DNA from: Rhizophagus irregularis
Taxonomy: Eukaryota > Glomeromycota > Glomeromycetes > Glomerales > Glomeraceae
Direction: 5' to 3'
Assembly: GCF_026210795.1 (NCBI RefSeq)
Contig: NC_089455.1
Location: 2,728,001-2,792,000, forward strand
Length of the DNA: 64,000 nucleotides
Shown here: in pieces, positions 2,722 to 40,243 of the stretch
Layout of the letters: each line of letters starts with the position of its first letter
Position numbering within the stretch: position 1 is the first letter of the stretch
The notes under the pieces: generated by a model
Database searches by the model: none
The model's input: the letters and a program-made list of their open reading frames with translations, nothing else
Told to the model about the DNA's origin: nothing
Program-made: the position numbers and the translations under genes

Positions 2722-2789
2722 GTATAAGATTTTTATTGTTTGTTATGCATTATTTATTTTAAGTTTTCAACATATTAGTGTTTGGAATC

Positions 2790-2870
2790 ATGTAACAGTT
2801 ATTCGAATAACTCGAGTATATTCGAGTATTCGAATAAGCATAGTGGTTATTCGAGTATTCATTTAGCCAG
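2790..2870. repeat. Subterminal ATTCGAAT/ATTCGAGTAT cluster, left end
   Basis: Short palindrome-like motifs ATTCGAATAA, CGAGTATATTCGAGTATT and TTATTCGAGTATTC are packed just inside the left TIR. The mirror cluster sits at 40142-40207 inside the right TIR. Such clusters near hAT ends commonly act as transposase binding sites. Confidence 0.55.
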
Positions 2871-2929
2871 ATATACTTTGCTGAAATCTCTGATTTTTTA
2901 AAATATTTTTACAATATTTTTACAATATT

Positions 2930-3235
2930 ATAATTATATATATTTAATAAATAAATAATATGAAATTGAGACTCATAAGAATATATTTTAAATATATAAA
3001 TATATATTAACAATATTAATACAATATATTTGTTATATTTGAAATAATATATTTAATATATAAATACTTAATATTAAATATATAAATACTATATAATTAA
3101 TATATTATATATATATATTTAGGATATAGTATTTGTATATTCAATATATATATATAATATATTTAACATATATTAAATATATAGTATATATATATTTAAT
3201 GTTTAGTATATATATGTTTAAAATATATTTATTAA
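2930..3235. repeat. AT-rich tandem unit interrupted by the LINE
   Basis: A stretch containing AAATTGAGACTCATAAGAAT and ATATTAACAATATTAATACA recurs at 14262-14400 and, more diverged, at about 14455-14540. The LINE at 3253-14237 lies between the copies, so it entered a pre-existing AT-rich tandem array. Confidence 0.6.
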
Positions 3236-4029
3236 TATATTATATATATATATTTTTTTTTTTGCAAGGTAGTGCAATTTGTGAGTTTATTAATTATATA
3301 AAAGACAGAAAGTTCTGTTACATGTATAATTAATTTGTTTAAAACTCCAAACCGGTCCCCCATCCATAAGATTGCTCCCGTGCCCTACCATCACCTTATG
3401 AAATTCACCTATATCCTCCCATAAGTAGCTATCAGATTATATAGGATCATCATCATCATATGGCTTTAATAAATGCTTTCACTACCCTCTAAACAAAAAA
3501 GAAGAACTATATTTGTATTTATATAATTTGAGATTGTTATATGCCTTCCAAATTACCCTTTTTATTTCCATTTTTAATAAATTGATTTATATATTGTCTT
3601 GTTTTTTCTAAAGAACTGACCACTGTTCACACATTTGAAAATTTTTCTTCCCTTCAGGTCATATGTACCATCTTACTTCTTGGGTTGGGTTGGAATTCTT
3701 TCATATACGATACGTTGTTGTGCTGATATTTTTTTCCTTAAATCTTGCTTTTTAATTCCTTTTCAGTACGTTCCCAATCTGCAACTATGCTCACAACGTG
3801 GTTGCCAAATAACCTTATAAAATTCAGTAATAAACATTTCTAAAAAAAGGGAAGCAATTGTTAGTGTAGCTTTTTCTGATTTGACTACACCTCAGCTTAT
3901 ATATCTTCTTTTGAAAAAGATTCCTTAACATTAGATGTACAAATAGGATAGGCAACTCTTGGTTAAAACCTGTTGTATGAACAAAGAAATTTCTATTCCA
4001 TAGATGTAGTTGTTGTATATCCTCTTGAT

Positions 4030-6248
4030 TTAGTTGAATATATTCTTTTTTGAGAGAAAGTCTTTAAGCATTTGTTCGCATTTGTTTATAGTATTGTTGG
4101 CCATTATTAACCATTTATCTCTGAGTTGCTGTGAATAAATTATATGATCATCATCTTCATTTTCTACAAGACATAACCTGCACTTTACATCTCCATATAA
4201 ATCATATCTTCTTTCTTTCATAATTTCCAAAGTTGGTAATGATTGTTTGTGAAACTTCAAGTGTTTGCTGAAATTGTTATTTACTGTGTTGCATAGCTAA
4301 ATCCCGCGTTTTTTTAAATATTGCCCAAGTAACTTTCTCTTCTATCATGCGAGTTGTATCTTGAAAATTGTTCTGCGCTGCATGATTAAAGCTGACATGA
4401 TGCCTCTAAGTGCAGTACTACATAAATTATCTATAAATTTCCTGATGTGTCGTCAACCCTCTTACCATCCCAGTATAAATCATATTTTAAGTCTTTCGTT
4501 GTGAATCATTAATTGCGATGCACGTTGATTTTCCTGTCATTCTTAGCCACTCTTGTCGCTTCTTCATTATTCTGTTCCCGATGACCTTTAACTTTTATTA
4601 GCTTTATCTCCAAATGTTTGCTGTCAATTAGATTAATTATACTACTAATTATGCTGTAATTGTTGCTTTTACACCATATTCGAATTTTGTTTTTTCCATT
4701 TGTTAAATTTATTCTTGTGTGGTTGATGCTATCTATCGCGCTGAGAATCTGTAAAGATATTCGCTCGTCCCGTTTGTAAAACCAATATACTGATAAAATA
4801 GCCCCAACTCTGCACGCGTAGATAAGCCGCTCTGTAATTGAGCTGCTGCATTCCAATATTACCTCGTTTTTATCATTTATTATTACCCACCATTGGCCAT
4901 ATGTTTTGTAAAGTCGTTTAAATTTGTATTAAAGCGATCTGTTAGCGAGCCATCTGTATATATGTCAATTATATTAGATGGATTGAATATTGATCTTAAT
5001 TGGTGCGAGCAAGTATATGTCCCGTCTTCTTATTTGATTTATCCTGTGTTTCAGATGAGGGCCGTATCATAATCCTGAATTTGTATACGGTCGGATATCT
5101 GTTCGAAATACATTGTCTCCCTGGCACTTTCTAGTCTCTATAATATCTTTAATAACTTTGGTATCGAGTTATTTTGGCAACTAAAGATTCTGTTAATGCA
5201 AGCAGTCCCGAATATCCTGTTGAAGTGGCAGTTATAGCTTTCTTTGTTGACTTCTTATCATTTAGTCTACAGCCACTACAACGTTGAATGACTTTTTGCA
5301 TCATACCGCATATCACATTTCTGGTTATTACTATTCCATGGCCCGTGTTGTATTGTAAACTTCACTATCTTATGTTTTTTAATAATTTGTCACATGCTAG
5401 TGTGCCATCCTGGTGTGTGTACACGGAAACTCCTTTTCCTACTGTCTTTAGACGGCATTTTCTTTGTCATCTTAAAAGCTTGCATAATTAATTAGGGCTT
5501 ACGCTGTCAATTTCTGCTCTTTCTGAATTTGATTTGGGGCTCATGTTGTCTTGCGATGAGGTCTTTTAGTTGGGTCGACTGTTGTATGAGGTCTGATAGC
5601 GTAGTGAGCCAGCCTTGGTCTACCTCTTGCTTGTCTCTTGTTAATGTCGCAAATTTGTTGCCATGTAATCGTGTTTGATGCGTTGTGGTTTAGTAACTGT
5701 AGCGCCCCATGTATTGAGAGGGCTGCTGCTTTCCTTATAATAAATTCTTTGTCCTTTTTTTGCAACTCTGACGCCTGTTGGTATACGAAATTCCTCACGT
5801 CGTAGGCCGATTATTGGTATATTCCATTCTTCACTTTCCGCTAACGGGTGAATTTTGAAAAGATAGTCGTGTGCTTTCCTTTATTACGTTGTACGTAGAT
5901 TGTTCACATCTTGTTGGGAGGCAGTAACGTCAAGGGGTCAGTCGTTAATATGCGTGATGTAATGTTTAGCGTTAGTTGCGCTTTTTTAGTCTCATTTTGA
6001 GCATATCTCTGCTTCGATTGAGAGTTTAGAGCTACTAAAAATTCTGTTATTTGCACGGCTGTTTGATTTCTCCAAAGGTTTTTCAGATTCCTTGTGCGGG
6101 AGTAGAGGATGTTGTTATGACAGTTAATTGGAAGTCGCGTTTTGTCTTGACTACTTTCATAATTGGTTTATAGATTTCTTCGTATTTCTTGTCTTCCCAA
6201 ATGGTAGTCTTCAGCCTGTATTCGAGTCTTGGGAGCAGCACCGTGTTG
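4030..6248 (-). pseudogene. LINE C-terminal half with RNase H-like region and zinc-knuckle end
   Basis: The sequence continues the LINE downstream of the hAT insert. INTVLLPRLEYRLKTTIWED occupies about 6187-6248, a thumb-like segment lies at 5541-5798, and an RNase H-like domain at 4509-4990. In that domain IYTDGSL is followed by a shifted frame that ends in KLIKVKGHREQNNEEATRVA. The last frame, 4030-4260, ends with CRLCLVENEDDDHI, the C..C..H-type knuckle usual at LINE C-termini. Several stops and shifts interrupt it. Sequence from 3264 to 4030 is the presumed 3' UTR. Confidence 0.75.
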
Positions 6249-6275
6249 ATGATATATATACTTGCCACCCATTTA

Positions 6276-6371
6276 AAATCCCCTCCCCTCCCATCCCATA
6301 TCCCATCCCATCCCAAATCCCAATCCCAAATCCCATCCCATCCCAAATCCCAAATCCCATCCCAAATCCCA
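6276..6371 (+). repeat. CCCATCCC/CCCAAATCCC array (left arm of the hAT)
   Basis: Some 15 C-triplets separated by 1-4 nt (CCCATCCCATCCCAAATCCC and similar) give a G-triplet array on the minus strand. The inverted partner is at 11037-11190. Both frames through the array give open but meaningless reading frames. Confidence 0.85.
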
Positions 6372-6840
6372 TTTACTTGTGTAACATTGTTCCAATTGGC
6401 CAATCGTCACGTGACGTTACACAAACTTCCAAAAAGGGAAATTTTGCTTCCCGCAAAAAAATGAGAAAATTTGGTTTCACAAGTATTCCAAAAAAGGAAA
6501 TTTATGCGCCGATCACATAATTCTGGCCGGCATTCCAGAAATTTTACCACTAATTCCGGTCAGAATTTAGTTTAAATTCTTATCCTACATACCCCCGATT
6601 TTTAAGAGATTTACCGATCAGATTTTAATGGATTTTAATGAAATTTATATCATTGGATTCGTCTCGATGCAAGGAATTCAATGGCAATGAAATTATATTC
6701 CCAACATTAATATTGACTAAGTTATTATAAAAAATGTATTTTATAATATATTATTAAAAATAACATGTTATAAAGCAATGGATTACTTTTTATATAAAAA
6801 GTTTTTATTCAGTTTATTATTTTATTATTTTTATTACAAT

Positions 6841-9352
6841 TTAACTTTGAATTAACTCAAACTTATCTATTAATTCATCAACATCAAAACTTAGATCTCC
6901 ATGATGCATTATACTTTCCTCATCACCTTTATTATTACCTATATCATCATCTTTATCATCTAATATACTTGTTGATAAATTAATAAAATTTGAGACTTCT
7001 AATTCATAATTATTTACATCTTCTAAATTTACTGTTTCTTCAATTTCATTGATATCATCAAAAACCAAATCAATTTCAAGATTATTATTATCACTGTCAT
7101 CAAATAAATCAACTCCATTATTTATTGATGATACAATCTGATTTAGTGTTTCATCAAGCTCTTCTGAAGTTATTTCATCATCTAAAAACTTTAATTCTGA
7201 TTTTGCATTCATTAAAAGATATGAATGTACTTGTGCCATAGCCTGAAACTCATCAATATTTATTCTATAAAAAATAAGATATTAAATAAAAATAACTAAA
7301 ATTAATATACATATAGTTTAACTGAATTTACTTACTTAGTACACCGTTTACTAAGATACCATCCTAAGATAGAGAAAACTCTTTCACAATCTGCATTGTG
7401 AGGCATAATTCCATGCATTTTTAATGCAAGTTTTCTAATAGGATCTTCTCCTTTTTTAAGTTCTACTGAAGTCCACCAATTTATAGGATTACTAATACCT
7501 TCTGTATATGGATCATCAAAAGGATCTTCTCTATCTCAATATAAATTAAGTTGTGTAAGCAAAAGATTGGAGCTATCTTTCCCACCACCAAATTGGTCTT
7601 TCCAAATATTAATAGCCTCCCTAGATATTTTTTTAAAAATCTTTTGCTGAAAGCAAGATGCTAAAAATTTATATTATAAATCTATTAGATAAAAAATTTT
7701 GAATTATTAAATTGTATTTTTAATTTTTTATCTCGATATTTTGGATGGAGTAAAAATGCTACCATATAAGTATTAATATCAAATTCCTTCCATCTTTTAT
7801 TAAAAATAGCAATACACTTCTTCTTAAAATCAATATTTTGAAAAGAGGGAATTTCTGATATTGCTTGTGCCATTTTAAGTAATTCAAAAAAACAGTCAGC
7901 TAATGTAGTTGTATTAAATTCAAGAGCTTTTATTGCACTTTTTGCAGGTTTTAAAATCAGTTTTAATTGTTCTACATTATACCAAAACTGCCTATCTTGA
8001 ATAATAGCTTTAGTTTTAATGGCATTAATAAAAATATCAGGTTGCTCACTAAAAATCTTTATATTAAAAAGAGTATATTAATATTATATGTAATAATATA
8101 TAAAATAAATAAAATAATTTTAAAAAAATACCAACCAATTTAATATTATTTTCTAAGCATAAAATTGAATCACAGACATCCCATGCTGTGCTCCAACGAG
8201 TTTTAACTGAAGACTTCAAACTTCCTTTAGAAAAAGAATTTCTAATTTTATTACGCAATGCATCTCCAGCTCAGTGTGTACCATGAAAAAATGAAATAAC
8301 TTTTTGGCATTTTTGAAGTATTTCTTTTGCCCAATCAATAGAAATTATATCTTTAGTTATTAAATTAATATGGTGAGCTATACATCTGATAGCCATTATA
8401 TGTGGATATTTATTCATTACTTTTCTTTTAGCTGATTGCATTGCAGCCTCTGCATCTGTAACAATTGCTATAAATTTAGAGTTGCCTACATTTTCAATAA
8501 CTTTAAGCATTTTTTCTTCATTAAATTCAGCTGTATGACGTTGAGATGAAAAATCATTAATTGAATATATATATTGACGTCGTGTAGGAGTTATTATTAC
8601 AAATGCATAAATACTTTGTCCAAGTGGACTAGTCCATGAATCAACTCCTAATATTAAAAAGGAATATTTAGTATTTTTTTTTTAAAAAAAAATTCTTATG
8701 AAATATATAATAATAAAATTAAAAATTCTAACCTAAAGTTAAATTTTTTGATTGACGCAATTCTTCTTCAATTTTTAATATTACATTTACTGATTCTGCA
8801 TTTAAATAAGTAGTTGATAAGGTTGTTCGTTTTGGTAATTTGTATTCAAAACATAAACTTTTTACAAAATCTTGAAAAAAAGGAGAATCTACAACTGAAA
8901 AGGGTATTCCACAACATATGAAAAAACGAACTAAAGATTTATCAGCTCTTGTAAAATCAATATTCCCACTATTATCTGTTTTATTAATTTTACTAATAGA
9001 TTGTTCAGAAACTTCTTCATTTGAAATCATACGTAAATATTCTATTTTAATATTGTGTGGAACTTTGGAACATCTTAAAGCTAAATGTGATTTCATTTCG
9101 TTTGGCTTTCCACGTTTCCATGATTGTTTACAAAATTTACATACTGCTCCTTTATGTGTATCATTTGGAATATCTACAATATCAAAGTAATCCCATACTT
9201 TGTCCCTTCTTTTACCTGATTTTTTTTGAATTAAATTTAAAGTTTCATTTTCAATATCATCTAAAATTGTACTTGTGTCATCTAATATATTTGAATAATC
9301 CAAATTATCATTCAAAGTAGTATCTGTATCAGTTAAAATATTGCTTTCAGTG
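6841..9352 (-). pseudogene. hAT transposase with BED zinc finger
   Basis: An N-terminal BED finger reads WDYFDIVDIP...CKFCKQSW...MKSHLALRC (C-x2-C...H-x4-C, about 9215-9060). Exon 1 ends at about 8734 and joins in phase to GVDSWTSPLGQSIYAFVIIT (first catalytic Asp). FIAIVTDAEAAMQSA follows (second Asp), then the KTRWSTAWD block. The C-terminal hATC dimerisation region is NPINWWTSVELKKGED with ALKMHGIMPHNADCERVFS. An acidic tail ends at 6841. Introns lie at about 8660-8733, 8050-8130 and 7265-7340. At least two in-frame TGA stops (minus strand, at 8271-8273 and 7536-7538) inactivate it; the first would be CGA (Arg) with a single C-to-T change. The start is unclear: no ATG precedes the BED region in frame, and the frame opens near 9352. 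Confidence 0.85.
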
Positions 9353-9479
9353 TTTTATTATTAAATAAAATATTAATTTTTAATATTTGTATTAAATATA
9401 AAAATAATACTAGTACACAAATACAAATATAAAGTAAATATACCATTATGATTAAAAGTAACAATTTATTTAATTGAAA

Positions 9480-10450
9480 TTTGGGTTTTCTTTTTTTTAT
9501 TTTTTTTAAAAAAAGAGTTGGGGTAGTTCACATTTTTGGTTAACTATATATATTTGTTTTAATCATATTAGATGATAAGAAAGTGGCTTAGTATTTAGTT
9601 AAATCAAATTACATTACTAATTTTTTTGGGCTTAGCTAATTTTTAATTTTTTGCTAAACATTTAATAAAAAAGGCAAAAAAGGCTCAATTTTTTTTAGCC
9701 AAGCAAATTATACCAATATAACAATGTTCAATGATTTAGCATTTGAGTTTTTTACATTAATTTTTATGCTTAGCTTTTAATAAAAAGAATTGATCTTTAA
9801 ACTAAATTATACTAATTTTTTTGATTAAATTACATTAATTTTTGGGCTTAGCTAATTTTAATTTTTTCTAAAAATTTAATAAAAAAGCCTCAGTATTTTT
9901 AAGCCAAGTAAATTATACCAATAATTTAACATTATTTTTTAAGCCAAATTACATTGATTTTTGTGTTTAGCTTTTAATAAAAAAGAATTGATCTTTAAGC
10001 CAAATCATGCATGCTAATTTTTTTGGCTTAGCATTTAATTAAATCAATTACATTAATTTTTGGGCTTAGCTAGTTTTTAATTTTTTCTAAACATTTAATA
10101 AAGAAAATGCTGTTAAGCAAATTATATTACCAATGGCTTAGTATTTAGTTTTTTAAGCCAAATTACACTAATTTTGTATTTAGCTTTTAATAGAAAGACT
10201 TGATCCTAAATCATGCAAATTTTTTGGTTTAGCATTTAATTAAATTAAATTACATTAATTTTTTGGGCTGCTAAGTTAAGCATTTAATAAAAAACGGCTT
10301 GATTTTTTTAACGCAAATTACATCAGTGATTTAGCATATAGTCTTTTAAGCCAAATTACACTAACTTTTGTGCTTAGTATTTAACAAAAGAAACTTGTTC
10401 TTTAAAAATAATACTAATTTTTTGTGCTTGGCATTTAATAAAAAAAAGTT
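9480..10450. repeat. Degenerate GGCTTAGC/TTTAATAAAA repeat inside the hAT
   Basis: A loose array of roughly 60-120-bp units holds TTTTTGGGCTTAGC, AGCCAAATTACA and TTTAATAAAAAA. It sits between the transposase start and the right arm of the hAT element. No coding content is seen. Confidence 0.6.
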
Positions 10451-11036
10451 TGATTATTTATTTCTAATATATAATTTGATGGATTATTATTATATGATAT
10501 TGCATAAATATTTAATAAAATAATATTTACAACCCAAAAATTAAATTAATCTAAAAAAAAAGTATCATCATCAAAATTATTAATTCAAATAAAATAATTA
10601 ATATATTACTAACTGCTAATATGCTACTTTTAAATAATATATATTACAAAATACATTTTTTATAATAATTCAGTCAATATTAATTTTAAAAATACAATTT
10701 TACTACCATTGAATTCCTTGCATCAAGACGAATCCAACGATATGAATTTCATTAAAATCTGATCTTAAAAAATGGGGTATGTAGGATAAGGATTTAAACC
10801 CTTGTAATTTGTAATTCTGGCCGGAGTTAAAATATAAACTTCGTAAATCTATTCGGATCTTAATTTTGCTCATATTCTGGTAATGGCTGCAATGCTGGCC
10901 AGAATTATATGATCGGCGTAAAAATTTCCTTTTTGGGAATACTTGTGAAACCAAAATCTCCCAATTTTTGCGGAAAGCAAAATTTCCTTTTTTGGAAATT
11001 TGTGTAACGTCACATGATAATTGACCAATGAGATTA

Positions 11037-11190
11037 TTTGGGATAAGGGATGGGATATGGGATATGGGATATGGGTGGGATTGGGATTTGGGATTGGGAT
11101 GGGATTTTGGCAAATGGGAGGGGGGATTTTGGCAAATGGGATGGGATATGGGATGGGATGGGATAGGGGATTCTCCCATCCCATTTAATA
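11037..11190 (+). repeat. GGGATGGGATAT array (right arm of the hAT)
   Basis: The array has many G-triplets spaced by AT, ATAT, ATTT or T (GGGATATGGGATATGGGTGG and similar). It is the inverted partner of 6276-6371. The spacing fits intramolecular G-quadruplex formation on the plus strand here and on the minus strand at the other arm. Confidence 0.85.
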
Positions 11191-11213
11191 TGGGTGGCAA
11201 GTATAATGATATA

Positions 11214-12318
11214 TATTGCTTGCATGTGAGTTAAATGTTTGCGTCTGATGGCTCCTAACACTGTCGAAATTTCCTTTTTCACTATTCCTTCTGTATGCTT
11301 GTCACCTTTGTCCGCCTTAAACCATACTCCTAGTATTCGTATTGGGACTGAACCTTTGTTGGCTGTTACTTTATCTCTATTTTTCCCTATCTCGATAAAC
11401 CTTTCCTCTTCATTATTATCTTCCGGATTAACAACTATAATTTCGGATTTTTCTCCATTTATCTTAATGTCATTAATATCAAAAAACTCATCAGCAATTA
11501 ACGTTATTTTTCTTGCTTCATTTTTACTTTTAGCAATCCATTGTGTATCATCTGCGTATGCTGATGCGGCGGTTCGTATTCTTACATTCCGTTTCTCATT
11601 ACAAATTGTGTTATACGGCCATTTCAGCTCAATAGAGTAACCTAATGATTTGTCCTCCTGTATTCTGTGGAGTAAAGGGTCATAAAAAATCCTCCATATT
11701 AGGGGCGATATCACCCTCCTCGATCGATACCATCACGCGCAGTGAAAGCATCCGTTAAGCCATAAGCTGTAATAATTCTTATCTTTCGATCCTTATATAT
11801 GTTTATGATAAAATTGATGATAGTAGTTGGGATTTTAATTCTTTAGGGCTTTTTGTAGGGAAACATCCCAACGCTATCGAAAGCGCCTTTGCCATATCTT
11901 GAGATACAATCCATACTGTTTTGTTTTCTTCGCAGGCGTCTTCCAAGATACTATTTATCATTGTGAGTGGAGTTGATGTCGATTCCTCAGGTAGGCCTGC
12001 GTAATTTGGTCCTTTCAAGATTTCATGCCTACTGAGTATACTTCCGAGGCGTTTTGTGATGATTTTTACCGCGCATTTACGTAGATATTCAATCAAAAGG
12101 ATCGGACGCGTTCTCGCTAGGTTATAATCCCAATCGTATGTCTTGGGGATCGGATAAAGTTGGGATATTTTCCACTTTATTGGTATGTTCTGTAGGTAGT
12201 AACACAAGCCCGTGTATTGCCTAAATAATTTATTAACTTCAATACCCGCTTTTTTTATTAGTTTGTAACTTATGTTTGATATACCCGACGCTGAACTGTC
12301 ATTCATGGTGTTGAGCAT
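11214..12318 (-). pseudogene. LINE reverse transcriptase, fingers/palm part
   Basis: Two frames cover the RT. 12318-11803 holds ASGISNISYKLIKKAG, then KWKISQLYPIPKTYDW and ARTRPILLIEYLRK (RT motifs 1 and 2), and EDACEENKTVWIVSQDMAKA (motif A region, SQDMAKA with the catalytic Asp). 11714-11214 starts with ISPLIWRIFYDPLLHRI (after motif B) and carries the catalytic AYADDTQW of motif C. A frameshift or deletion lies between them near 11715-11800. The frame then runs through LTHMQAIYII and stops abruptly at the hAT insertion (TSD 11206-11213). The continuation NTVLLPRLEYRLK lies beyond the insert at about 6190-6248. Confidence 0.85.
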
Positions 12319-13186
12319 CTCATTCCATTCTTGTTCTATCGGTGTGTCACCCAGGTGATCATATATTTGTGGGTTGATGTCAGTTCGTGGCTCATATATG
12401 GTTTTCCATATTCTGGAAGGTTCTCAAATTTGTGATTTCTCGCACGGAATAATGATGAAAATGCGTTAATTGCTTCTTCTTGGACTTCTCTTTAGTGTTT
12501 AAGAGAATTTCTTCCTAGTGTCCGTAGGATGCGGATTCGTCCAGGTTAATTTTTGAGTATATCTTGTCTAATATGTTATTGATCATTTTCTGTTAGTACG
12601 TAGTGATCATTTGTTGTTTCCTTCTTCTTATCCTTCTCTTTATTGCTTTTTACACTCTTTGTCTTTCATTTTGATTACTTTCTTCTGACTATCTTCAGCC
12701 AATTTCTAGTCTCGCATTTCCATGTGTGCCAATCTGTGTCTTCTGTTAACTCAGATATATTTGTTCCGTATCGTTCATTGAAAGTTTTGATCCCTTTTGA
12801 TGCCTTGAGCAACTCCGCTCCTTTCAACTCATTCTTATATAATTTTCTCATTATACTTCTCGTATAGGAGATCCTTACGTTCTTTCGAGGAGTCTTCAAT
12901 TTCTTTATAGTTTCTGTTGATGGTTTGTTTTGGTACTTCACCTTTTCGCGTGGGATGCGTTTAAGTGATGCCTGCTGTATACATTTGCATATAATGTCCC
13001 ATAGTTTATTTAAGGTGCTTCTTCACTTCGTCCATGAGTTTCTACGTATCTGAAGGCCTTATCTTCCAGAGGCTTTTGAGGTAGTTTTCATATTCATTCC
13101 ATTGTTCATTTGTGGTGTTTTCATAATCGTATACAATACGTTTTGTATTTTTCTCTGCTCTTCTACCCCTTTATTATTGGTAACTA

Positions 13187-14158: not shown

Positions 14159-14254
14159 TTCGGCTAGTTCAATTGTTTTTCTTATTTCGTTGTTATTTTG
14201 TTTTCCATTTAGACCAGCTAAGGAAAATTTTTGCTATATTATATATATATTTGT

Positions 14255-14600: not shown

Positions 14601-14744
14601 ACTAATTTATTGAAATAATGTACTTGTTATTTTTATTTGTTCATAATTATATTATTATACATAATTAAAATAATTAAACAAAATCCCATTTCATCTAAAA
14701 AAAACTAAGAAGTAAAAAATATCAATTCTATCAACAATAACATT

Positions 14745-29040: not shown

Positions 29041-30060
29041 AATAAAGTTCAGAGTTAATTTCTATAAATTATTAATATCAAGTAGTAAAATTAAATATTT
29101 TTAATTATTATTTCAATATTTAAAATAATTTTCCTAAACTTACAAAATTCAAATTTTATTGAATATTCTCAATTTTAGCAGATCGACACATTTTTTTTCT
29201 TTTAAGTAACGAAATTTAAACCTTTTTTTGTAGATATCATCTTGGCTGATGTGGATTGCAGCATTTCAAGGTATTTAACTTCGAAATTCATCATATAAAT
29301 ATGTTTTTTATTTTAATTTTAGGTTTCAACATCTTGCTAGTATTTATTTTGAAGAAAGGAAATGCTTACTAAATTTTCGAATTAAGATTATCAAAATATA
29401 TACACAGGTCAAATGCTGACAAATCGGCATCCAATCGGATGCCAATAGTCATCCTTATTTGGTGATCGGATGCCAGTTAGGCGGTCAATTAATGGCGCAA
29501 ATCAGAATATAACCGGATGTGCCAATTATAATATTACATAATAAAAATAAATCACACCCGGCACTATTTAATTTGACCACTATTTAATTTGTCAAATTAA
29601 ATATAACCAGTATCTTCTGATTGCTAATAGAACCTTCCGATTGTAATTAATTGTTTAATAGAAATGCGCTGATTTGAATTGATTGCAAATATTATATTTA
29701 TTATTATTCTAATACAATAATTTAAAATACAATCTATCAATAAGCTAATTTGATAAATCCTACATATACTATCTATCCAATGAACCTACCAAAACATACA
29801 AAAGAAAAGAATACATTAGTATTATTTACTAATATTTCCAATTTAAAACATCTCCCCTTCTTTTCTATGGGCCGTTTTATTAGTTTCAAGGTACCTGGTA
29901 GGCCCTACAATAAAAAAAGAAAGTGGAACGTTAATAAAGCTTACTAGCGTTCTCAATTTAAAAAAACTCCCCTCCTACTTTTAATAATTACCTCTCAGGG
30001 GGTTCCTTTGGTTCTGAAGGTCCTATAATAAAAAAATTTTTAGATAAGAAAAATGGCGTT
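29041..30060. other. Spacer with no supported gene
   Basis: AT-rich sequence. A perfect hairpin GGCATCCAATCGGATGCC lies at about 29425, with GGATGCCA repeated near 29436 and 29470, probably a remnant of a small transposon end. The frame at 29750-29947 has no recognisable content. Confidence 0.5.
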
Positions 30061-30660
30061 GGTATAATTTAATAATGCTAACATCACCATACCCACCAAA
30101 GACACTTATCGTTCTAAGAGAAAATACTCCAAGACGCTGACCTACAGAAAAAAAAGTCCAGGTGCTGTTCAATGTTGAGAAATCCCACCAAAGAAGTCCA
30201 AGAAGTCAACGTCCGAAGTCCAATGCCAAAAGATCCAGTACTTACAGAAAAAAAGAAAGGTGAAAAACTAATAAAAAATTAAAGAAAATATGTAAGTTTT
30301 GAAGTATCAAATCAAAACTTGCCATACCCCAAAGCTGAAGAAACTGATACCTACAAAAAAAAGAGGAATTTAAAAAAAAGAAAAAATTAAAATAAAATTG
30401 TAAGTTCTGAACCGAAACTTACCAAATCCAAGATCCGATTCAAATAAGCCGGTATCTAAAAAAGGAAATGAAAGTTTAAAACGATTTTTTTAAAAATACA
30501 TCCCCCCCTTGAAACCGATATCTATAAATAAAAATTAAAAAGTTTTTTCAAAAGAAAAATTTACTAAAAAAGTTAAGTTTCGAAGTTAACTTACCGATCC
30601 AAAGCGCAAAAATCTAAGCTGATACATACCTAAAAAACGAAGCCATGAGAGTAATTTTTT
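30060..30660 (-). other. Array of intron-like units with hairpin splice donors (minus strand)
   Basis: On the minus strand, polypyrimidine tracts ending in TAG or AAG, short exon-like blocks and GTAAGT or GCAAGT donors alternate. Examples are exon-like blocks 30456-30424 and 30350-30323 (33 and 28 nt). Directly after each donor the sequence folds back on it: GTAAGTT pairs with AACTTAC (30400-30422), GCAAGTTTTGA with TCAAAACTTAC (30292-30322), and TAAGTT with AACTTA (30574-30593). No long open frame runs through it. The same architecture recurs at 56940-59400. Confidence 0.5.
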
Positions 30661-32262
30661 TAAAGGAAAAATTTTTTTTTAAGTTTATTAACGCTAAAAA
30701 GATTATCTTTCAGCACAAATCATAATTGACTAGTCTGATCTACCGATTGATTTATTTTGCTTTGACAATTCACATGCAAAAATTGTCAACAAACTTTACT
30801 GACGTAACTGACCGTAACGTCACTGCTAAAAAAAGAAAAAGTCTGTACCCCTAATTTTCTATATACCATTTTAATATATCACATTGACAAATAAAGTCTA
30901 ATTGGCATAATTGTTGGTTTGGCAACAATAAGTAAATTTCTGATTGCTTCTTATTTTACATGTTGAAGATCTGGATTTCCCAACCGGCAGATATAGATTA
31001 GGATTCCCATTCCATTTTTATTGGATAGGAACGCATGTCTTATACATTTTTCTATTTTGTGTATCATTTTTTGTTTGTAATACGACAAAAAAAATATTTT
31101 AAGTTTTCTTATGTAATATGTAATATTATTAGCTCCTTTTTTTTAAAAAAAAAAATTTTTAAAGTATTTTGAAAGATTTTTTTTTGCTATAAAATAATTT
31201 TTTTTATCGAAATTGATGAGAGGAGATGGTTTTTATTGGCTAAATTTTCATATAAAAAAATACATTATGTCATGGCAAAAAAATGTTTTCATCGGGCTAC
31301 TACCATAATATTCAATCCGATGAAGGCATTGTGTTGAATTTAAATTCTCCATGACTTTTATCGAAGTTATATTCAATTTAGTGTTATGATAAAATCAGTA
31401 AAGGGAGAGAAAAACTTTCACACACAATAAATTTTAGTATAATTGAGATATCTCACTGACAGATCCGCGTTCATGATTGACCAGAATATTGTCTCAGAAT
31501 ACTAAAGATTGGTTGCAATACGTTACCATTATGTAAGTTACCGGTTACAAACTTTTGCTCATTTCTTTATTCCAATTTAAATGTGATTTACAAAATAGCA
31601 ACATAAGATCACTGACAAATTAAAATAAATTGTTAAGTTCGTAAACAAATACTTAACAATCTCTACATTTGTAAGAAATTAAATTTACTGCCAGGTTCAA
31701 TTTAATTTTTTTTCGCTAAATCATATAAATGATAAAAATGTAAATTATAAAATAGTAGTAATAATAATAATTCAATAATTCGTTAAAACGTGGAGATGTG
31801 ACGTACTTAATAAATTTTTTAACAATCCGCAAGACCTTTACCATGAACAAAAAAAGCTAGATAAATAACAATCGCTGAAAATGTCAGGGGTAAAGTTTGT
31901 TTCGTAATGACAAATATAAACTCGTGTGATTTATTATGTCAGATCGAACACTGCTTTATTTGATGAAAATTGCCCCATAAAATAGTTTTTGACAAAGAAT
32001 TTGAACTTTTTTTCGTGTTTCAAGCGTGTACTTTATTCTGATTCATTTGTGATCAGAAGATTCTTCGCGTAGTTAATGCGGTTACTGCATTAATATAAAT
32101 GTAAGCTGATTTCCACACTCTTTCTAAATATTCTAAATAAAAATAGCCCCCAAAAAAAAATCTAAAAATGCTACATCAAAAAGTATGTAGCTAAATAAAT
32201 TTCTTAATAAATAATATCTCGAATAAATTATAAACCATAACTTAATATTCTTTTCTTCTATT
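30661..32262. other. Spacer with no supported gene
   Basis: AT-rich sequence with poly(T)/poly(A) runs and no open frame of note. I saw no TIR pair, tRNA or repeat array here. Confidence 0.5.
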
Positions 32263-33760
32263 ATAGGATTAGGTGGTACGGTTGCAGAAGGATCAAAACA
32301 ACCTATAAAAAAAAATAGAAGTTCATTTAATACAAATGAAGCAAAAACTAAGAAAAATAAATCTATAGAGGAAATATCCTCAGACTTAGAAACTGTCGCA
32401 AAAGAAAATGAACAAGCATTAGCTATAACAAACAGAAGTTTACCTGAAGCAATATCTAAAAAAAACATATTCGTCATGGTAATTCCCCCAGAAATAGAAA
32501 CTGCTGTTATAGAAGAATCTCAACAAGAAAAGAATGCTCTGAAAAAAAGAAGTCTACCTAATACCGTTGAATCAAGATTTAAGAAAAAAAAATCTATACA
32601 AGAGATTCCGCCTGACATAATAGATTTAGAGACAGTCGAAGGACCTGAACAACAAGGGCAAGGTTTGTCAAAAGAACAAAACTATTTGCTATGAATATTT
32701 AGAATGAAAAACTAACGTGTTTTCAAACGAAAAGAAAATTTAAGTTTATTCGATTTTGATAAAATAACGAATGATATTCCTATATTAATTCCAGATCGTC
32801 CAAACATGTAAGTAAACTACTGTTTGGGACACATTTATCACATCTTACATTACACTTATACCTTTAATGCCCTTACTAATTAGGATATACCTCTTTTTTT
32901 TTTCTAAAGGAGAAACAATTTAGAATCATACACAGAATTTGAAATTGCCGATTTTGTTGCAGATCATCCATCAATATTGGAGCTGGCTAGTGTTCTTAAG
33001 GAATCTAAAAGCGTAACGGCTAGAAATTCTAGAAATTGTAAATTGCCAGCTCTTTCTCTTCAGGTATAGTAAATATTTATAATTCATTTTAATGTAAATT
33101 TATTTTGAATTAAAAGTCTATCATTATTTAGAAAGAAAAAGATATAAATAATAAACTTTTGATCGAAGAACTCAAGCTCCTATTTCTAAAGTGTCGAAAA
33201 CTGAATTCGCATGTTTTTAATGCGATTATTTGTGCAATTTATCCAGATTTGAGGGATAAACTTCATCAGGAAACAGCAAAGAATATTCATCACGAATGCG
33301 TATTAAAAATGGCAGACTATAGGCACAAATATGTGAAAAAAATATCAGAAATGGTGAATACTTATATAAAAGATGAAGAATAAGAATCAAAATAAATTAC
33401 TATTGATTATTGTATTATTATTAAATAAAAATATTAACCAAATTTATAGAAAGGTTACGGTTGAAGAATACATTGGCGATTCGTGGAGAAACATTTTATT
33501 TATGCATCCTCGTGCTATTTAAAAAGATGAATTTGAATCGTCAAAAGATGATCAAGAACAACTTAAAAAATTTGTAATAGAATCATTTAAAATCGTTCTT
33601 GATTATGAACTACTAGATAAAGATGGCGCAGACGTTGATCTTCCTGGGGATAAAATCAAAAAAACTTTAGATCATATTACCTTAGGAATTAAAGTTCATT
33701 CTGTATCAAAGCATGATATTGTAAACACTTTAGATCTCAAAAATTGCTTAGGTAATTTTT
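32263..33760 (+). pseudogene. Hypothetical multi-exon gene, Lys-rich N-terminus, probably broken
   Basis: A frame opens at about 32263 (GLGGTVAEGSKQPIKKNRSS) and continues through VMVIPPEIETAVIEESQQ to a stop at 32693. It is rich in Lys, Glu and Ser and holds a degenerate internal repeat (RSLPEAISKKN, then RSLPNTVESRFKKKK), so it is probably disordered. Further exon-like blocks follow: FDFDKITNDIPILIPDRPN (about 32744-32806), NNLESYTEFEIADFVADHPS (about 32914-33063), KLLIEELKLLFLKCRKLNS to YIKDEE (33130-33383), and KVTVEEYIGDSWRNILFMHP to NTLDLKNCLG (about 33451-33750), which has a TAA at about 33521. Splice sites can be proposed but not all phases fit. The block LIEELKLLFLKCR resembles the gene at 16580-17173. 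I do not recognise the family. Confidence 0.45.
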
Positions 33761-33769
33761 TTTCGCAAC

Positions 33770-34415
33770 AAAATAGATGTAATTGTTAAAAATAAAAATA
33801 TTTCCAAATATTAAATTCGGTGTTTTTGTGCTATAAGTAATGTTCCATCAAGTTTTATTTGGTAACGGAATTTTACACAGTGATTCAATGCCGTTCATAC
33901 ATAAAGAGTTATGTATCGAGATTTTCAAACAAGAGACTTAAGAGACTTGATTAAAGAATCTTTACTTTAGCCAAAAAAGTTTTTAATGTGAAAATTTGGG
34001 AAAATTCTGACGTAAAGTTGTTGTTTGAGGAATTGCGCCTCCTTCTTTGAGGTGTTTTTAAAAAAAACGGAAGTAAACTATTAACTTTCGTAAAGGAATA
34101 TCTGCATTAGAAAATGCTTCTATCGAATCCTTTATCACTTCTTTTTTTGATGCTATAGCAAGTAGTTTGTATTGTTTGCTGACTTTTGGCTTTTTCCTTT
34201 GTTTCAAAAATAATTTTTTGGGAAGCATGCTTTTTGTTAATTTATGTTTCCATTCTACTGAGATCACATACAAAAAAGTAATCCATTATCAGCACGAAAT
34301 ACATAATCTTTAACTCGTGTATGAACTTTTATTGCACTGATTTTTCGATATAGGATAATGACTTGCCCCCCTTAAAATTTATACTGCAGAAAATTTTGCG
34401 AATATGTCATATATA
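33770..34415. other. Spacer with a possible minus-strand coding scrap
   Basis: A 71-residue minus-strand frame (34273-34058) reads KLTKSMLPKKLFLKQRKKPK and KEVIKDSIEAFSNADIPL. It could be an exon, but there is no neighbour to join it to. Confidence 0.3.
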
Positions 34416-36081
34416 TGTTGTGCCTCAGATCGTCAGATCGCAACTAGGTGAAACAATGTGATATACGGAAAGAAAAGTTCATTCGAACTTTTCTTAATTC
34501 TCAAAATCTTGTGATTAAAGATTTTCAAGGATAAGGAAGAAAAGTTCATTTGAACTTTTCTTAATTCTCAAAGTCTTGTGATTAAAGATCTTCGAGGATA
34601 AGGAAGAAAAGTTCGTTCGAACTTTTCTTAATTCTCAAAATCTTGTGCTTCGGTTTTTTTCTTAAAAAAAAAAATATCTTAATCTGAAAAAATAGTGCTA
34701 GTTTAACCCATTAGTAACTACACTAAAAATTATTTTAATTATTATGCTTTAAATAGGAACGGTTCTTCACGGCTAATTAGCTTCTTTGAGGTAAGTTTCG
34801 GAAGCTTTTATTATTTTTTTTATTTTTTTCTTTTTGGAACGGTACTAACCCTTTTTTTTTTCTTTTTTTAGCATTTCGGCCTGGACTTTCTCCCGGTAAA
34901 TAAGTGTGCTATGATGTCTACTATGGTGTTAGTTTCTTTCTCCTAGAACGGTACTGACTGTTCTTTTGCCTTTTTTTTTAGCATTTCGGCCTGGGACTCT
35001 CTCGGTAATAGGTGGTGTCTATGGTGTTGGTTTCTTTCTCCTAGAACAGTACTGACCGTTCTTTTGTCTTTTTTTTTTTAGCAGAAACTTTTCCTGAATT
35101 AGAAGTCATTCCCTCTAACAAAATATCAATTAGAGAGGCTGCATGCCTTCAGAATGCTGGTTTAGTATCAGGGGTATATGTAATTGTAAAGGTGAATGCA
35201 ATAGTAATAAATGTCGCTGTAAGAAGGCGGGTGGAGACTGTAGCAGTAGATGTTATAGTGGACGTTCGTGGCAAAAATAAATGATACTTATATGTAAAAT
35301 AAATTAGTCAAGAAATGCATTATTACTGATGTATTATATGAAAAAAATAATTAAGAAATTGAATTTAAAGTAATTTCATATATGCTTAATTCATTGATTT
35401 TATTTGTTAATGGATTATACATAATTTTTATATTATTTAATATCAGATTTTACATTAAACTTTTCGTTCCTCTTATTATGAATTTTCATTTCTCTAATAT
35501 TCCTATGTTTTCTTACTTAAATATTTACCTATTCTAAAAACCATTAATCTATTCCTATTAAAAAAAGAAAAGGGAATGGTTAGTATCTAGAAGAAAAAAC
35601 CAATACTATAGATACCATAGCACCACCTATTTACCAGGAGAGAGTCCAGGCCAAAATGCTAAAAAAAGACAAAAGAACAGTCAGAATCGTTCTAAGAGAA
35701 AGAAACTAACACCATAATAGACATCATAGCACACCTATTTACCGGGAGAGAGTCCAGGCCGAAATGCTAAAAAAAAAAGAAAAAAAAACGGTTAGTACCG
35801 TTCCGAAAAAGAAAAAAATAAAAATAAAAATAAAAGCTTCTGAAACTTACCTCAAAGAAGCTAATTAGCGTGAAGAACCGTTCCTATTAAAGCATAATAA
35901 TCAAAATAATTTTTATGTAGTTACATAACACTATTTTCAGATTAATAAAATAGTAGATATTTTTTTTAAAAAAAAATTTATTTGCCTTAGATTAAAAAAC
36001 CGAGCACCTCAGATTATCAATGATCCACATCACACACCTCACATGACGATTTCAATCCGAGAATCGATCTGAGGCACAACA
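34416..36081. mobile_element. 1.7-kb element with long inverted repeats and a CRC-type coding remnant
   Basis: The ends TGTTGTGCCTCAGATCG (34416-34432) and CGATCTGAGGCACAACA (36065-36081) are inverted. A second inverted block of about 350 bp, 34720-35075 against 35570-35940, lies inside and holds splice-site-like units. TGT...ACA ends and a cysteine-rich C-terminal integrase remnant are compatible with a Ginger-type DNA transposon. No clear target duplication is seen, so the class is tentative. A tandem hairpin-like unit GAAAAGTTCATTCGAACTTT repeats at about 34472, 34543 and 34609 just inside the left end. Confidence 0.55.
35086..35280 (+). pseudogene. C-terminal cysteine-rich tail of an integrase-like protein
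   Basis: The frame ETFPELEVIPSNKISIREAA runs to LVSGVY and then shifts by one base to CNCKGECNSNKCRCKKAG, CSSRCYSGRSWQK, stop at 35278-35280. The pattern C-x-C-x3-C...C-x-C...C-x3-C is the CRC-like tail I associate with Ginger/KRAB-A-domain-2-like integrases. That attribution is from memory and unverified. A single missing T at about 35178 explains the shift. An acceptor-like T-tract and TAG stands directly upstream. Nothing of the catalytic core is left in this element. Confidence 0.5.
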
Positions 36082-36254
36082 AAAATATGTAGCGATATAG
36101 TTTATCAAAAAATTTTGTGACTTGTATGATATTATGTGAAATGCCATAAATCATCGTCCTGCACTGGATCTGCTGCGCGGAATTTTATTTTTCGTTCGCA
36201 TTTTTGGGTATTTGGATTAAGATCTAAAATATAGATCTGTCATCTGTGAGATAT

Positions 36255-36369
36255 GCAAAAGTATCGATCTTGATAGGTCAGGGGGATAGTTCTTGATATA
36301 TCAATAATAAAAATAAATATATGTCTATCAAGAAGCATACCGCATCTATATCAAGATCGATACTTTTGC
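36255..36369. mobile_element. 115-bp foldback MITE with 9-bp TSD
   Basis: The inverted ends GCAAAAGTATCGATCTTGAT and their complement (36350-36369) are flanked by the identical 9-bp repeat GTGAGATAT (36246-36254 and 36370-36378). A nine-bp duplication fits Mutator-like elements. There is no coding capacity. Confidence 0.8.
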
Positions 36370-37149
36370 GTGAGATATGGCAAGCCAAAGCGAAATCAGA
36401 CATTGTATGCGTGTACTGTAGACAAATTTAGTATACATACCATACAATTACGCCAATTGATAATCAGTTTATATAAACTGAGATTAAAATAAAAATTGAT
36501 CTTATCATCTTTACAAACTACGACGAGCTATGACGAGCTATGACGAGCTACGGAAGTTTGTAGTCAAAACTACACTGAAATGCGACCAGTGCTCATGTAT
36601 ATTATTTTCCCTAACCCTTTTCTACTAACCTTTAATTTTGTAGTGTTTGGTTTTATTGCCACAGTTCACCTATAAACCGGTTGCCATGCTTGAGTACTAA
36701 TAGCATCTAAGTTAGTTGTTGAAGCTGAAGTTTAGGGTTCGCCCTTTTCTAAGGTGGATTCATAAGTAGTGCAATGGTTTCTATTCTTATTTATTTAATT
36801 CATTATACACAAGCATATACACATATTCCCACTTTTTTTCGACTTGTTCTTTTGTTAGTAAAGAAGCCAACTACAAACAAGAATAATTATGCAATAATCA
36901 AATCCTTTGATCAAGATCAAAATGATACTGTCATTTGAGATTAAAATTGGTTAAGGGAAAGTAAGGTTGCAACATACAATTATGGAAAATAAGACAATCA
37001 TATGAAGTGAAACCTGAAAGATGAGTACACAGCTATTATATCTTCTCCATCAGTTATTGTTAGAGATCATGCACTCTTTCGGCAGTCACGTGTTTTGTTA
37101 AATACTTATTTGGTCGGTTTATTTACTAAAATTGATACTTGATTTTTAA

Positions 37150-37660
37150 GCAGTGGCGTTACTTTCGTCATTTCAGACAAAGATCGGAACATTATCAACG
37201 ACCCGTCCATCTTCTTACGACATACACCATCACCAGACTATGAATCCAACACCACCATCAGTGATCGTTCGTACGGAATCGGTAGATACTGTACCCACTC
37301 CGGCCCATGATTAACATTAAGACAGAAACAATATCGGACTGATACATAATGCATCATTCCACACCTGACAGTATTTACGTGTGGCGTCAATAGACGAAAG
37401 AATAATACGAGAGATGGAATATGTTTGAACTTCCTTTTTTTTAATGCTTCTGTTCGCTCTTCTTTCTTTGGTTTTTTCTTTCCTTAGCCTTTTACTCTCA
37501 TGCGTAGTGGGCGGGACGTGTTCAGATGCGTCCCTCCACAGGTTTGTTTTTTGACACCAAGGTGGCGCTGTTAAATTTGGCGGTTTGGTAGTTTAGAATT
37601 ACTTTAGGCTTACGAATAGTTTGTCCCTTTGTTCACATGGAAATTAAATAAAAATAAAAT
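37150..37660 (+). mobile_element. SINE-like or processed-transcript insertion, 511 bp
   Basis: A perfect 19-bp direct repeat ATTGATACTTGATTTTTAA (37131-37149 and 37661-37679) brackets a segment richer in G+C than its surroundings. The segment ends in the A-rich tail AAATTAAATAAAAATAAAAT. Long duplications and an A-rich 3' end are marks of LINE-mediated insertion. A frame DRNIINDPSIFLRHTPSPDY is visible in it but is not recognised. No clear A/B boxes were seen. Confidence 0.7.
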
Positions 37661-37799
37661 ATTGATACTTGATTTTTAATTTAATTAAGCTTTTTTATTA
37701 AAGCTTAACTTTACAAGTCGATAATTTAATCGAATTCTTACTTTTTCGCAAGGCTAATAAGTTTCATTTTTTTACCTTATTACATTATTGCATTCCATT

Positions 37800-38500
37800 T
37801 TTGTTTAGTGCTATTTCGTATGTCTTTGTCTGGTGGCTCTTTTGGAAAGAAAGTACTAAGCTATTTTTCATCTTTTAGTTTCTAGTCTCTATTTCATACT
37901 ACCCTTTTTTGTTCTTTCATCCTTTGATTCTTCCAGAAAGGTAAAGGTGAGCTTTTCGCCTCTGATCATTTCTTGTCTTTGTTCGTACTAACTGATTTTT
38001 TGTTTCTTTAGGTCCTGGTTGTTGAGTGTTCTATTGAAAGGTAAAGGTAATTTTTCTTCATCCGTTTTATAATCTAATTTTCATCTTTGGTTCTTTCTGA
38101 TTAGTTGACTAATATCGGTTTTCTTTTCTTTAGGGCTTTGTGAGTATACTTTCAGAGTGACAGTTGGTTTATTTATGGCAATTTTTTCTTTTAATCTTAG
38201 GTTGGTTTTATTCAGTTTCTTACTGAATTTATCGTCTTTTTTAGGTCACCCATACTTTCTTCTTTCAGATTTTGACGGTTTTTCCTGGAAATTAAGATTA
38301 GGTTCATTCTTATTTTTTTTTCTTTTCTACCTTTCAGAACAAGGGTAGTTTTTGTTTTCCTTTTTGATTTCATTACTAATCATCGTCTTCTTTCTCTTGG
38401 TTTTTGGTACATTTTAGATTTGGCGGCTCTTTAGGATTTTTCTTTTCTATTGGGTTTACCACGAATAAAGTATGAAATTTCTTTTTTTATTTTTTTTTTG
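37800..38500 (+). other. Pyrimidine-rich array of splice-site-like units
   Basis: Units run acceptor TTTCTTTAG, short block, then donor GTAAAGGT (for example block 38013-38041 with AAAGGTAAAGGTAA after it). The unit start GAAAGGTAAAGGTGAGC occurs at about 37936 and a variant at about 38036. A GTACTAACTGATTTTT branch-site-like motif precedes one acceptor (about 37985). It resembles the arrays at 34.7-35.9 kb and 56.9-59.4 kb but without strong hairpins. No long frame except a pyrimidine-driven one at 38157-38348. Confidence 0.4.
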
Positions 38501-38987
38501 CAAAAACTAACTCCGACTTGGAATTACTAGAATCCTAGGCAAGTTCGAAAAAATTTTCAACCCTTTTAAAAAAAATTTGGTACTCCTAGTTCCAGCTTCG
38601 ATATCGAGGTCCTTAGTAATTTCAAAAATTATTGTAAACTTCTTTATATTAAAAATTTACGGGAAATTCGGCTTCAACTCTGAAAAACTGAAACAAACCC
38701 ATGATTAGTACAGCAGTTCGAAAGTATTTTTCTTAAATTGCTTATAAATGTTTTTGCCAATTTTTTTTTGGTAATGATCGGCCAAAATTAAAAAATAGCG
38801 ATATTTTAATAATATTTCTGCGATGTTATTATATTAAAATATTATAAAAATATTGTATTAATATCATAATTTGAGTATAATAAAAAAAATTATTTCTCTT
38901 ATTTTTCATATTATGGTTATTATATTGTTTTCCTATCATCTTTTTATTTTATTTAAATAGTATTTTTTAAATTATCATATTTTTATA

Positions 38988-39948
38988 CAGTCAACTCCCT
39001 CTATAGTCACTCCCGTTATAGTCACATTCTACTATATAGTCACGCCAGTTGAATGTTCAAAACACTTTATTATTAAAATCTATCCTATATAGTCACAATC
39101 TATCTATAGTCACTATCACACCTATCCTCAAAAATCTTATATTAAAAAGAACCGTTTATAATTACAGTTATATAAAGAATATATTAAATAACTTGGCATC
39201 TAATAATCGTACAAAGATGTACCATAGCTTGTTAGAATCGTCTCACTGAGACGAATCGAATGGTGGTAGTTTTATCCTTTTACGATCACTGGCTGATGAG
39301 TTATTCAACAAAATGTTAAGCATCGGCATTATTATATTCCTTGATTTACGTTTACTGCGCCATTTAACATTTTGCTAAATATCTCGGTACCTAGTGATTG
39401 TAAAAAGACGATTAATAGCTCGTTGGAATCGCCTCATCAAGACGAATCGAATGGTGGTAAGCTCATCTCTCTATGATCAATATTGACGGAGTTACTACTT
39501 AAAAACTATTTAATATTTTTTAATTTCGGAAATTGATCTAGTGATTGGATTTCGATGTATTTTATACCATTAGATTCGTCGCATCAAGACGAATCGAATG
39601 GTAGTAAGATTGTCTCTCTAGGATCAATATTGGCAGAGTTATTACACAAAAACCATTAATATTTTTTTAATTTCGGAAATTAATCTAGTGATTAGATTTC
39701 GATGTATTTTATACCATTAGAATCGTCTCATCAAGACGAATCGAATGGCGGTAAGATCATCTCTCTACGATTAATATTGGAGGAGTTACGATACAATAAA
39801 GTTTTAAGTATAATTTTGGCCAAAATTATGTTAATTTTTGGCCGGAATTATGATATACTAATATAAGAAATTTTTTATATAGTCACATCTCTTTATAATC
39901 ACTAAATATGGACTGTCCCAAATGTGTGACTATAAAGAGAGTTGACTG
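38988..39948. mobile_element. pogo/Tc1-like MITE with TA duplication and internal minisatellite
   Basis: The ends CAGTCAACTCCCTCTATAGT (38988) and the complement of CAGTCAACTCTCTTTATAGT (to 39948) are inverted and flanked by TA. Internally, units of about 140-190 bp hold AGACGAATCGAATGGTGGTA and a TCGTCT...AGACGA hairpin (about 39237, 39428, 39575 and 39728). It has no transposase, so it is non-autonomous. Confidence 0.8.
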
Positions 39949-40243
39949 TAGTTTATTTATTATTATTATATCATACTATTACATAACTGTATCGTAAAAA
40001 TATTTTTTAAAATTAGGAGTTTCAGCAAAGTAGTATAGTTAAAATTCTAATTGGGCATTAAATCCTTAAATTTAACTGAGTTAAAATCATAATTCAGGCC
40101 AAAAATTATGTAAATCATTACTATAAAAGGAAATTTAACTTATTCGAATATTATTCGAATACACTTTATAAATTTAAATGAATATTCGAGTATATTCGAA
40201 TATATTCGATTCCAAACACTACAACATATTTTGTTATTTATAG

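Follow-up and report, generated by a model that had tools for sequence, protein, structure and literature searches.

The question raised by a 64-kb stretch of the genome of the fungus Rhizophagus irregularis (C27:2728001-2792000, referred to here as the window, positions in which serve as coordinates) is how a telomerase gene has come to lie inside DNA that appears to have moved. Telomerase maintains chromosome ends and probably has a common origin with mobile reverse transcriptases, and its reverse transcriptase, TERT, is normally encoded by one essential host gene. A preliminary description of the window had placed an intron-bearing TERT gene within a 37.4-kb segment (2776-40221) bounded by hAT-type ends and had favoured transport by those ends. 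In the current analysis, in which 146.7 Mb of the R. irregularis genome in 32 contigs were searched, we arrive at another arrangement. A DNA transposon of about 23 kb that carries TERT has inserted in a 289-bp miniature inverted-repeat transposable element (MITE), and nested insertions have lengthened this copy. The probability that we assign to this reading is roughly 0.92.

The outer limits are as had been described. The 14-bp inverted ends (TAGTGTTTGGAATC) are exact on both strands, at 2776-2789 (+) and 40208-40221 (-), and are the only matches in the window when up to two mismatches are allowed; two or more such matches occurred in 20 of 100 shuffles (mean 0.80). The same sequence has 84 exact matches in the genome as compared to none for the reversed control. 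An exact 8-bp duplication, CAACATAT, is found by direct reading on both sides (2768-2775 and 40222-40229), and joining of the flanks yields a GT..AG host intron of 68 nt with both exons in one frame, the protein of the joined exons carrying a GKTTL motif which we take to be a P-loop. No family has been assigned by Pfam to the host reading frame 40268-40711. The ends, the duplication and the closed intron agree in assigning the whole of 2776-40221 to a single site of hAT insertion.

Genomic stretches with both hAT ends were fetched at 29 places, and 26 of them are 270-296 bp long. The 8-bp duplication is identical in 24 of the 29, differs by one base in three and is mismatched in two. The outer 289-bp MITE, with its hAT ends and 8-bp duplication, belongs to this family. 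A longer member of 5,539 bp (C1:7504421-7509959), with an exact 8-bp duplication CTCACCGA, is possibly the source of the 289-bp MITEs. In two stretches (L056 and L060) both hAT ends are present and the 8-bp flanks do not match, the ends perhaps coming from different hAT copies.

Comparison with the consensus of 26 short genomic copies has revealed that the two outer pieces of the segment are the two parts of a single MITE, positions 1-100 on the left (100% identity) and positions 99-289 on the right (98.95%). Where the halves meet, positions 99-100 (TA) are repeated, at 2874-2875 and 40031-40032, and this repetition at the cut indicates that the intron already contained the 289-bp MITE when an insertion split it. 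The preliminary description had preferred a hAT macrotransposon, or a giant cargo-carrying hAT, whose outer ends would have moved all of 2776-40221, and the perfect 14-bp ends and exact 8-bp duplication are in keeping with such a unit. Those ends, however, are halves of one cut MITE and do not bound a moving unit of 37.4 kb, and at three other sites the inner DNA is present between ends of its own and never between hAT ends, which makes this explanation highly improbable. Stepwise nested growth, which that description had named as contrary to its proposal, is what is seen here, first a MITE and then a terminal inverted repeat (TIR) transposon with its own 2-bp duplication. The idea that TERT lies on DNA that moves was correct, the mobile DNA being this TIR transposon, complete at three other sites.

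The inner DNA (2876-40030, 37,155 bp) has at both limits imperfect inverted repeats beginning with CTTTGCTGAAA, and the element terminates in CTTTG..CAAAG. At least 100 places in the genome carry CTTTGCTGAAA. An isolated left end resembling that of the TERT element has also been observed at C1:2841224 (L093); TERT searches gave no match on C1. A profile search of the genome with the telomerase RNA-binding domain identified five loci above the cut-off, in the window (C27) and on C5, C17, C15 and C9. The first four of these lie between CTTTGCTGAAA-type ends, one end on C17 having one base changed. The four elements measure 37,155 bp (C27), 22,747 bp (C5), 26,495 bp (C17) and 40,300 bp (C15), and each is flanked by a matching dinucleotide (TA/TA, AA/AA, TA/TA and TT/TT, respectively), the chance of a single such match being 0.09 as judged from the dinucleotides of the window.

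The copy at C5:3207027-3229773 is colinear with that of the window, the main pieces being 96-98% identical. The C5, C17 and C27 copies, about 96-98% alike, constitute subfamily A, and the C15 copy, at about 82% in DNA, represents a second subfamily, B. A core order is common to both and comprises the left end, gene A (+), TERT (-), the transposase (+), gene B (+) and the right end. When the flanks of the C5 copy are joined with one AA, a gap-free match of 149 codons to transposase proteins extends across the junction (ten best of 51 alignments), and this uninterrupted match implies that a gene already in place received the 22.7 kb in a single insertion. The similarity of about 96-98% among the C5, C17 and C27 copies could also be produced if a region with TERT had undergone segmental duplication and the inverted ends and 2-bp repeats were due to chance. 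The limits of the copies coincide, however, on the left at the same base in C5/window and C5/C17 and within 2 bases in C5/C15, and on the right within 3 bases in C5/C15. Together with the 2-bp duplications in four of four copies and the insertions inside a MITE and inside a transposase gene, this renders segmental duplication scarcely credible, and a chance origin of the ends was rejected.

The window copy is long (37.2 kb) because other elements are nested inside it (Table 1), the least interrupted copy measuring about 23 kb. The C5 copy is without window 3252-14234, 20771-24427 and two small inserts, and carries about 0.76 kb and about 0.37 kb of extra sequence. The first of these insertions resembles a long interspersed nuclear element (LINE), with an APE endonuclease reading frame at 13187-14158, and contains in turn a BED-finger hAT-type element (about 6255-11205) with the ends ACTTGCCACCC. 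The 3.66-kb element has eleven near-full-length matches elsewhere, in addition to partial ones, among 29 scored candidates. Its ends are of the type given for PlavakaB in PMC12730594.

Table 1. Features of the TERT-carrying transposon, its nested insertions and its surroundings, in window coordinates
Feature	Position	Strand	Remarks
Host-gene intron, first part, ending in CAACATAT	2722..2775	+	direct reading; 68-nt intron in phase
Left half of 289-bp hAT MITE (positions 1-100)	2776..2875	+	100% to consensus
TERT-carrying TIR transposon, 37,155 bp	2876..40030	- (strand of TERT)	C5 and C17 copies, diverged C15 copy
Nested LINE-like insertion	3252..14234	-	flanked by 16-bp duplication; not in C5 or C17
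Gene A (exons 16580-16806, 16879-17173)	16580..17173	+	conserved in both subfamilies
TERT RNA-binding, RT and C-terminal exons	17276..20651	-	16 exons modelled
Nested 3.66-kb element, CATCA..TGATG ends	20771..24427	.	AT duplication; inside TERT exon
TERT N-terminal (TEN) exons	24476..25250	-	3 exons modelled
Plavaka-like transposase gene with BAH-like domains	25463..28980	+	
Gene B, lysine-rich protein	32143..33777	+	conserved in both subfamilies
Short cysteine-rich exon	35173..35277	+	matches in C5, C17 and C27 copies; no match in C15 copy at E 1e-4
Nested fold-back element	36255..36370	.	limits approximate; absent from C5, C17 and C15
Conserved non-coding block, candidate telomerase RNA	36480..36980	+	
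CCCTAACCC, template-like	36609..36617	+	1.5 telomere repeats
Nested TIR element, CAGTCAACTCCCTCTATAGTCAC ends	38988..39948	.	TA duplication; absent from C5
Right half of hAT MITE (positions 99-289)	40031..40221	+	98.95% to consensus
Second CAACATAT and host intron end, acceptor TAG	40222..40243	+	splice/phase reading

The gene carried by the element is, on the basis of its domains, a telomerase reverse transcriptase. The TEN, RNA-binding, reverse transcriptase (RT) and C-terminal domains of the spliced model of the C5 copy all score above the Pfam cut-off, and the window's own exons are present, in agreement with the intron-bearing TERT that had been reported there. In the PDB the model comes closest to a chain of telomerase reverse transcriptase (E 2.5e-66), presumably the human one. 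The search for a second TERT locus that the preliminary description suggested has yielded a separate host TERT on C9 (P0005, 1320 aa) in addition to the element TERTs on C5, C17 and C15. The host and element forms have TERT domains and most of the intron positions in common, with positions and phases shared for 18 of 20 introns in the C17 model and 17 of 20 in the C5 model, and the shared introns indicate that TERT was captured as DNA. The two forms differ in the linker exon, which is of 1063 nt in the host and much shorter in the element, and in the length of the protein, about 890-970 aa in the element form as against 1320 aa.

A tree of 19 TERTs was constructed with eight rows from elements, namely the four copies described here and the R. 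irregularis records P0001-P0004. The element TERTs form one clade (100/100) that lies outside the grouping of the R. irregularis host with R. clarus (100/100) and beside the sampled Glomeraceae hosts (85/87). With a smaller set of TERTs the element groups with Rhizophagus at 74/82.7. The element clade may be sister either to all the sampled Glomeraceae hosts or to Rhizophagus alone, and both trees place it outside R. irregularis plus R. clarus.

Apart from the five main loci, a degraded TERT fragment with two exon-like matches of 60-62% is present at C16:4858417-4859201. Weak RNA-binding-domain matches at C19:388008 and C15:4278823 were rejected, no TERT being found at either place by tblastn with three TERT queries.

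The ratio of non-synonymous to synonymous divergence (dN/dS) was calculated from codon counts by the method of Nei and Gojobori, using a script of our own. Between subfamilies A and B it amounts to 0.22-0.24 for TERT (bootstrap 0.17-0.31), to 0.23-0.25 for the transposase and to 0.275 for gene A (a single pair; bootstrap 0.15-0.57), TERT being constrained as much as the transposase. The layout common to both subfamilies implies that their ancestor already held TERT and that the constraint acted on TERT inside the element. Judging from these comparisons, TERT seems to have been kept in the element by natural selection for a long time. It could instead be a passenger that was captured once, carried without use and is now decaying. 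Damage in all four TERT copies would be expected of a passenger, as would the weaker constraint among the young A copies, where dN/dS is 0.44-0.55 for TERT (and 1.3-3.4 for the transposase, from few synonymous changes). The low ratio between subfamilies, which is similar to that of the transposase and goes with a shared core layout, tells against carriage without use, as do the retention of the TEN, RNA-binding, RT and C-terminal domains and the presence of TERT in both subfamilies, and we regard a mere passenger as rather unlikely.

Alternatively, the element TERT might serve the host as an extra dose of telomerase or as a stage-specific form, the transposon having been domesticated or tolerated. 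Such a service would agree with the full set of domains, the long retention and the occurrence in the protein database of R. irregularis proteins of both lineages (P0001-P0004). The host, however, has its full-length TERT separately on C9, and the copies in this isolate are damaged and not preserved at one locus, so that a service to the host appears unlikely by a good measure.

A number of observations weigh against the reading of a mobile element that carries and uses TERT. In each of the four element copies of this assembly TERT is damaged. The C5 copy has an in-frame stop and a late frameshift; in the C17 copy the start is lost, and a stop, a frameshift and an insert are present; the window copy is interrupted by the 3.66-kb insert and lacks a codon at motif C; and the C15 copy has a stop and an insert. 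In the model of the host TERT on C9 one frameshift is likewise called next to an intron, and some of the calls near splice sites are alignment artefacts. All four transposase models have at least one stop or frameshift, and no working copy of the element was found in this assembly. The synonymous divergence between A and B is unequal among the genes (0.59-0.60 for TERT, 0.37 for the transposase and 0.25 for gene A), which is unexpected if the genes simply share one history, unless their rates differed or copies exchanged sequence. The termini CTTTG..CAAAG differ from the usual CA..TG of the CMCT clade to which the transposase has been compared, and the role of TERT in the element is one that we infer.

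The transposase, as judged from its motifs, the 2-bp duplications and a relative that falls just short of the Pfam Plavaka cut-off, is called Plavaka-like, without being filed as Plavaka. At an E threshold of 0.001, a single-sequence search gave 53 relatives and a profile search 321, and among the best 120 of the latter the named rows are from Rhizophagus, Diversispora, Gigaspora, Scutellospora and Racocetra. The motifs D, D, C(2)C, H(3)H and E occur in the CMCT order, C(2)C and H(3)H lying between the second D and the last E. In 27 aligned rows they were counted as D 24, D 26, C 20, C 21, H 26, H 25 and E 25, the catalytic D and E being assigned by order and pattern. As given in the sources, the CMCT clade has 2-3 bp duplications and the residues D, D and E, the second D and the last E enclosing C(2)C and H(3-4)H (PMC12730594), and termini are TGT..ACA or CATCA..TGATG in Plavaka and mostly CA..TG in CMCT (PMC12730594, PMC11075540). 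The element resembles the families so described in its 2-bp duplications, found in four of four copies, and in the C(2)C and H(3)H of its transposase, but differs in its ends, in the BAH-like domains and in having no match to the Pfam Plavaka family PF18759. The ends do not fit known Plavaka, and only the term Plavaka-like is used here. PF18759 is not matched by the transposase or by its 27 aligned relatives; another relative, P0179 (35% identical), reaches 25.1 bits against a cut-off of 26.3. The predicted structure is poor, with a mean pLDDT (predicted local distance difference test) of 47.6, and the best 50 Foldseek matches are BAH-bearing proteins. The putative DDE assignment is based on the motifs, the predicted fold giving it no support.

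These observations point to an order of events. A 289-bp hAT MITE came first, in the intron of the host gene. A second DNA transposon, comprising gene A, TERT, a Plavaka-like DDE transposase and gene B, inserted into the MITE and duplicated TA, and later nested insertions lengthened the window copy to 37.2 kb. The transposase is predicted to cut at the CTTTG ends and to paste the whole unit including TERT. The gene itself probably entered the element in a single capture, at the DNA level, from a host resembling the Glomeraceae. That it was retained suggests that the element profited from the making of DNA ends. More speculatively, TERT may have been kept because DNA-end synthesis helped the element, for instance if broken ends left by excision were capped or healed, or if linear copies survived excision with its aid, and it might be templated by an RNA of its own from the block at 36.5-37.0 kb.

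That the transposon mobilises a complete telomerase, with TERT and its own RNA subunit bearing a telomere template, is a tentative proposal drawn from the DNA, and we hold it at somewhat less than even odds. The telomere repeat of the genome is TTAGGG, with arrays at contig ends among the matches listed, and the CCCTAACCC found in the block holds more than one telomere repeat and matches the repeat of the genome. One CCCTAACCC occurs in each of the four elements, within a block that is conserved between the subfamilies, and telomeric 9-mers are found at one other place in 360 kb of DNA (overlaps counted). A 22-mer across CCCTAACCC, with up to three mismatches, gave four matches, all exact and forming one set that corresponds to the four elements; its reversed control gave three. 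By DNA search the core of the block is present in the four elements only, among the matches listed, and the other listed matches of the block query cover its first 73 bases only, which belong to the fold-back repeat.

The block is conserved between subfamilies at an exon-like level over about 500 bp, its best 150-column windows reaching 89% as against a non-exon mean of 72.7 and maximum of 87.3 (62 overlapping windows). The non-exon DNA around TERT is also fairly alike (84% between subfamilies for TERT introns where aligned, and 72.8% for non-exon DNA with short gaps counted), and the conservation of the block taken alone is therefore moderate evidence. The longest open frames in the block are of 61 codons in C27 and 52 in C15. 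Four hairpins, which were picked by eye after inspection, keep all their pairs with three compensatory changes, and a scan of all short hairpins found four compensatory pairs (P 0.068 or 0.016 under two nulls). The single both-sided pair of 120 with a covariation term of about 0 given by RNAalifold for the whole block and an ordinary fold energy (minimum free energy z -0.71) weigh against an RNA. So does Rfam, which detected no telomerase RNA in the block, its 10 listed matches all being below the gathering score and mostly microRNA models on the fold-back element. No telomerase RNA of the host was identified. The plain alternative for the block with CCCTAACCC is a telobox-like promoter motif.

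Filamentous-fungal telomerase RNAs are characterised, according to PMC3603654, by a template of more than one repeat, a CCCUAA core and an upstream helix. The candidate block is similar to them in its template of more than one repeat, in the CCCUAA core and in a candidate helix upstream, but is without an Rfam match. If the block does encode a telomerase RNA, the element could extend its excised ends, or breaks of its own making, with telomeres, and a whole ribonucleoprotein would have become mobile.

Two known systems invite comparison. The fungal transposons that carry a TET/JBP dioxygenase gene (PMC12730594) are likewise DNA transposons whose complete units retain an enzyme gene acquired by capture, in several lineages that include Plavaka, whereas the cargo here is an intron-bearing TERT and the size is about 23 kb; no match to TET/JBP was found among 8 scanned proteins. 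The terminons of rotifers (PMC6431247) are similarly very large mobile elements with a telomerase-related reverse transcriptase, telomere repeats and extra genes, but they are Penelope-like retroelements at telomeres, whereas a true TERT is carried here by a DNA transposon, and at internal sites. None of the papers listed by the literature searches describes a DNA transposon that contains TERT, as judged from titles and abstract openings, subscription papers and preprints being outside the search. An intron-bearing telomerase gene that has entered a mobile element and stayed constrained across two subfamilies offers a natural test of what a selfish element gains from telomerase. It also adds a new example of a DNA transposon of more than 20 kb with a stable gene set, in an ecologically important soil fungus that nourishes plants.

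Two further relatives of the transposase, the closest outside the four elements, lie at C18:592576-595516 and C27:2905416-2907867 and show 70-76% identity. Neither gave a TERT or RNA-block match in the tabulated genome searches, in which only the best candidates were scored. An end of the type CTTTGCTGAAACCTCTAATTTT is found 15-35 kb upstream of the relative on each contig, and the two are possible TERT-less sister elements.

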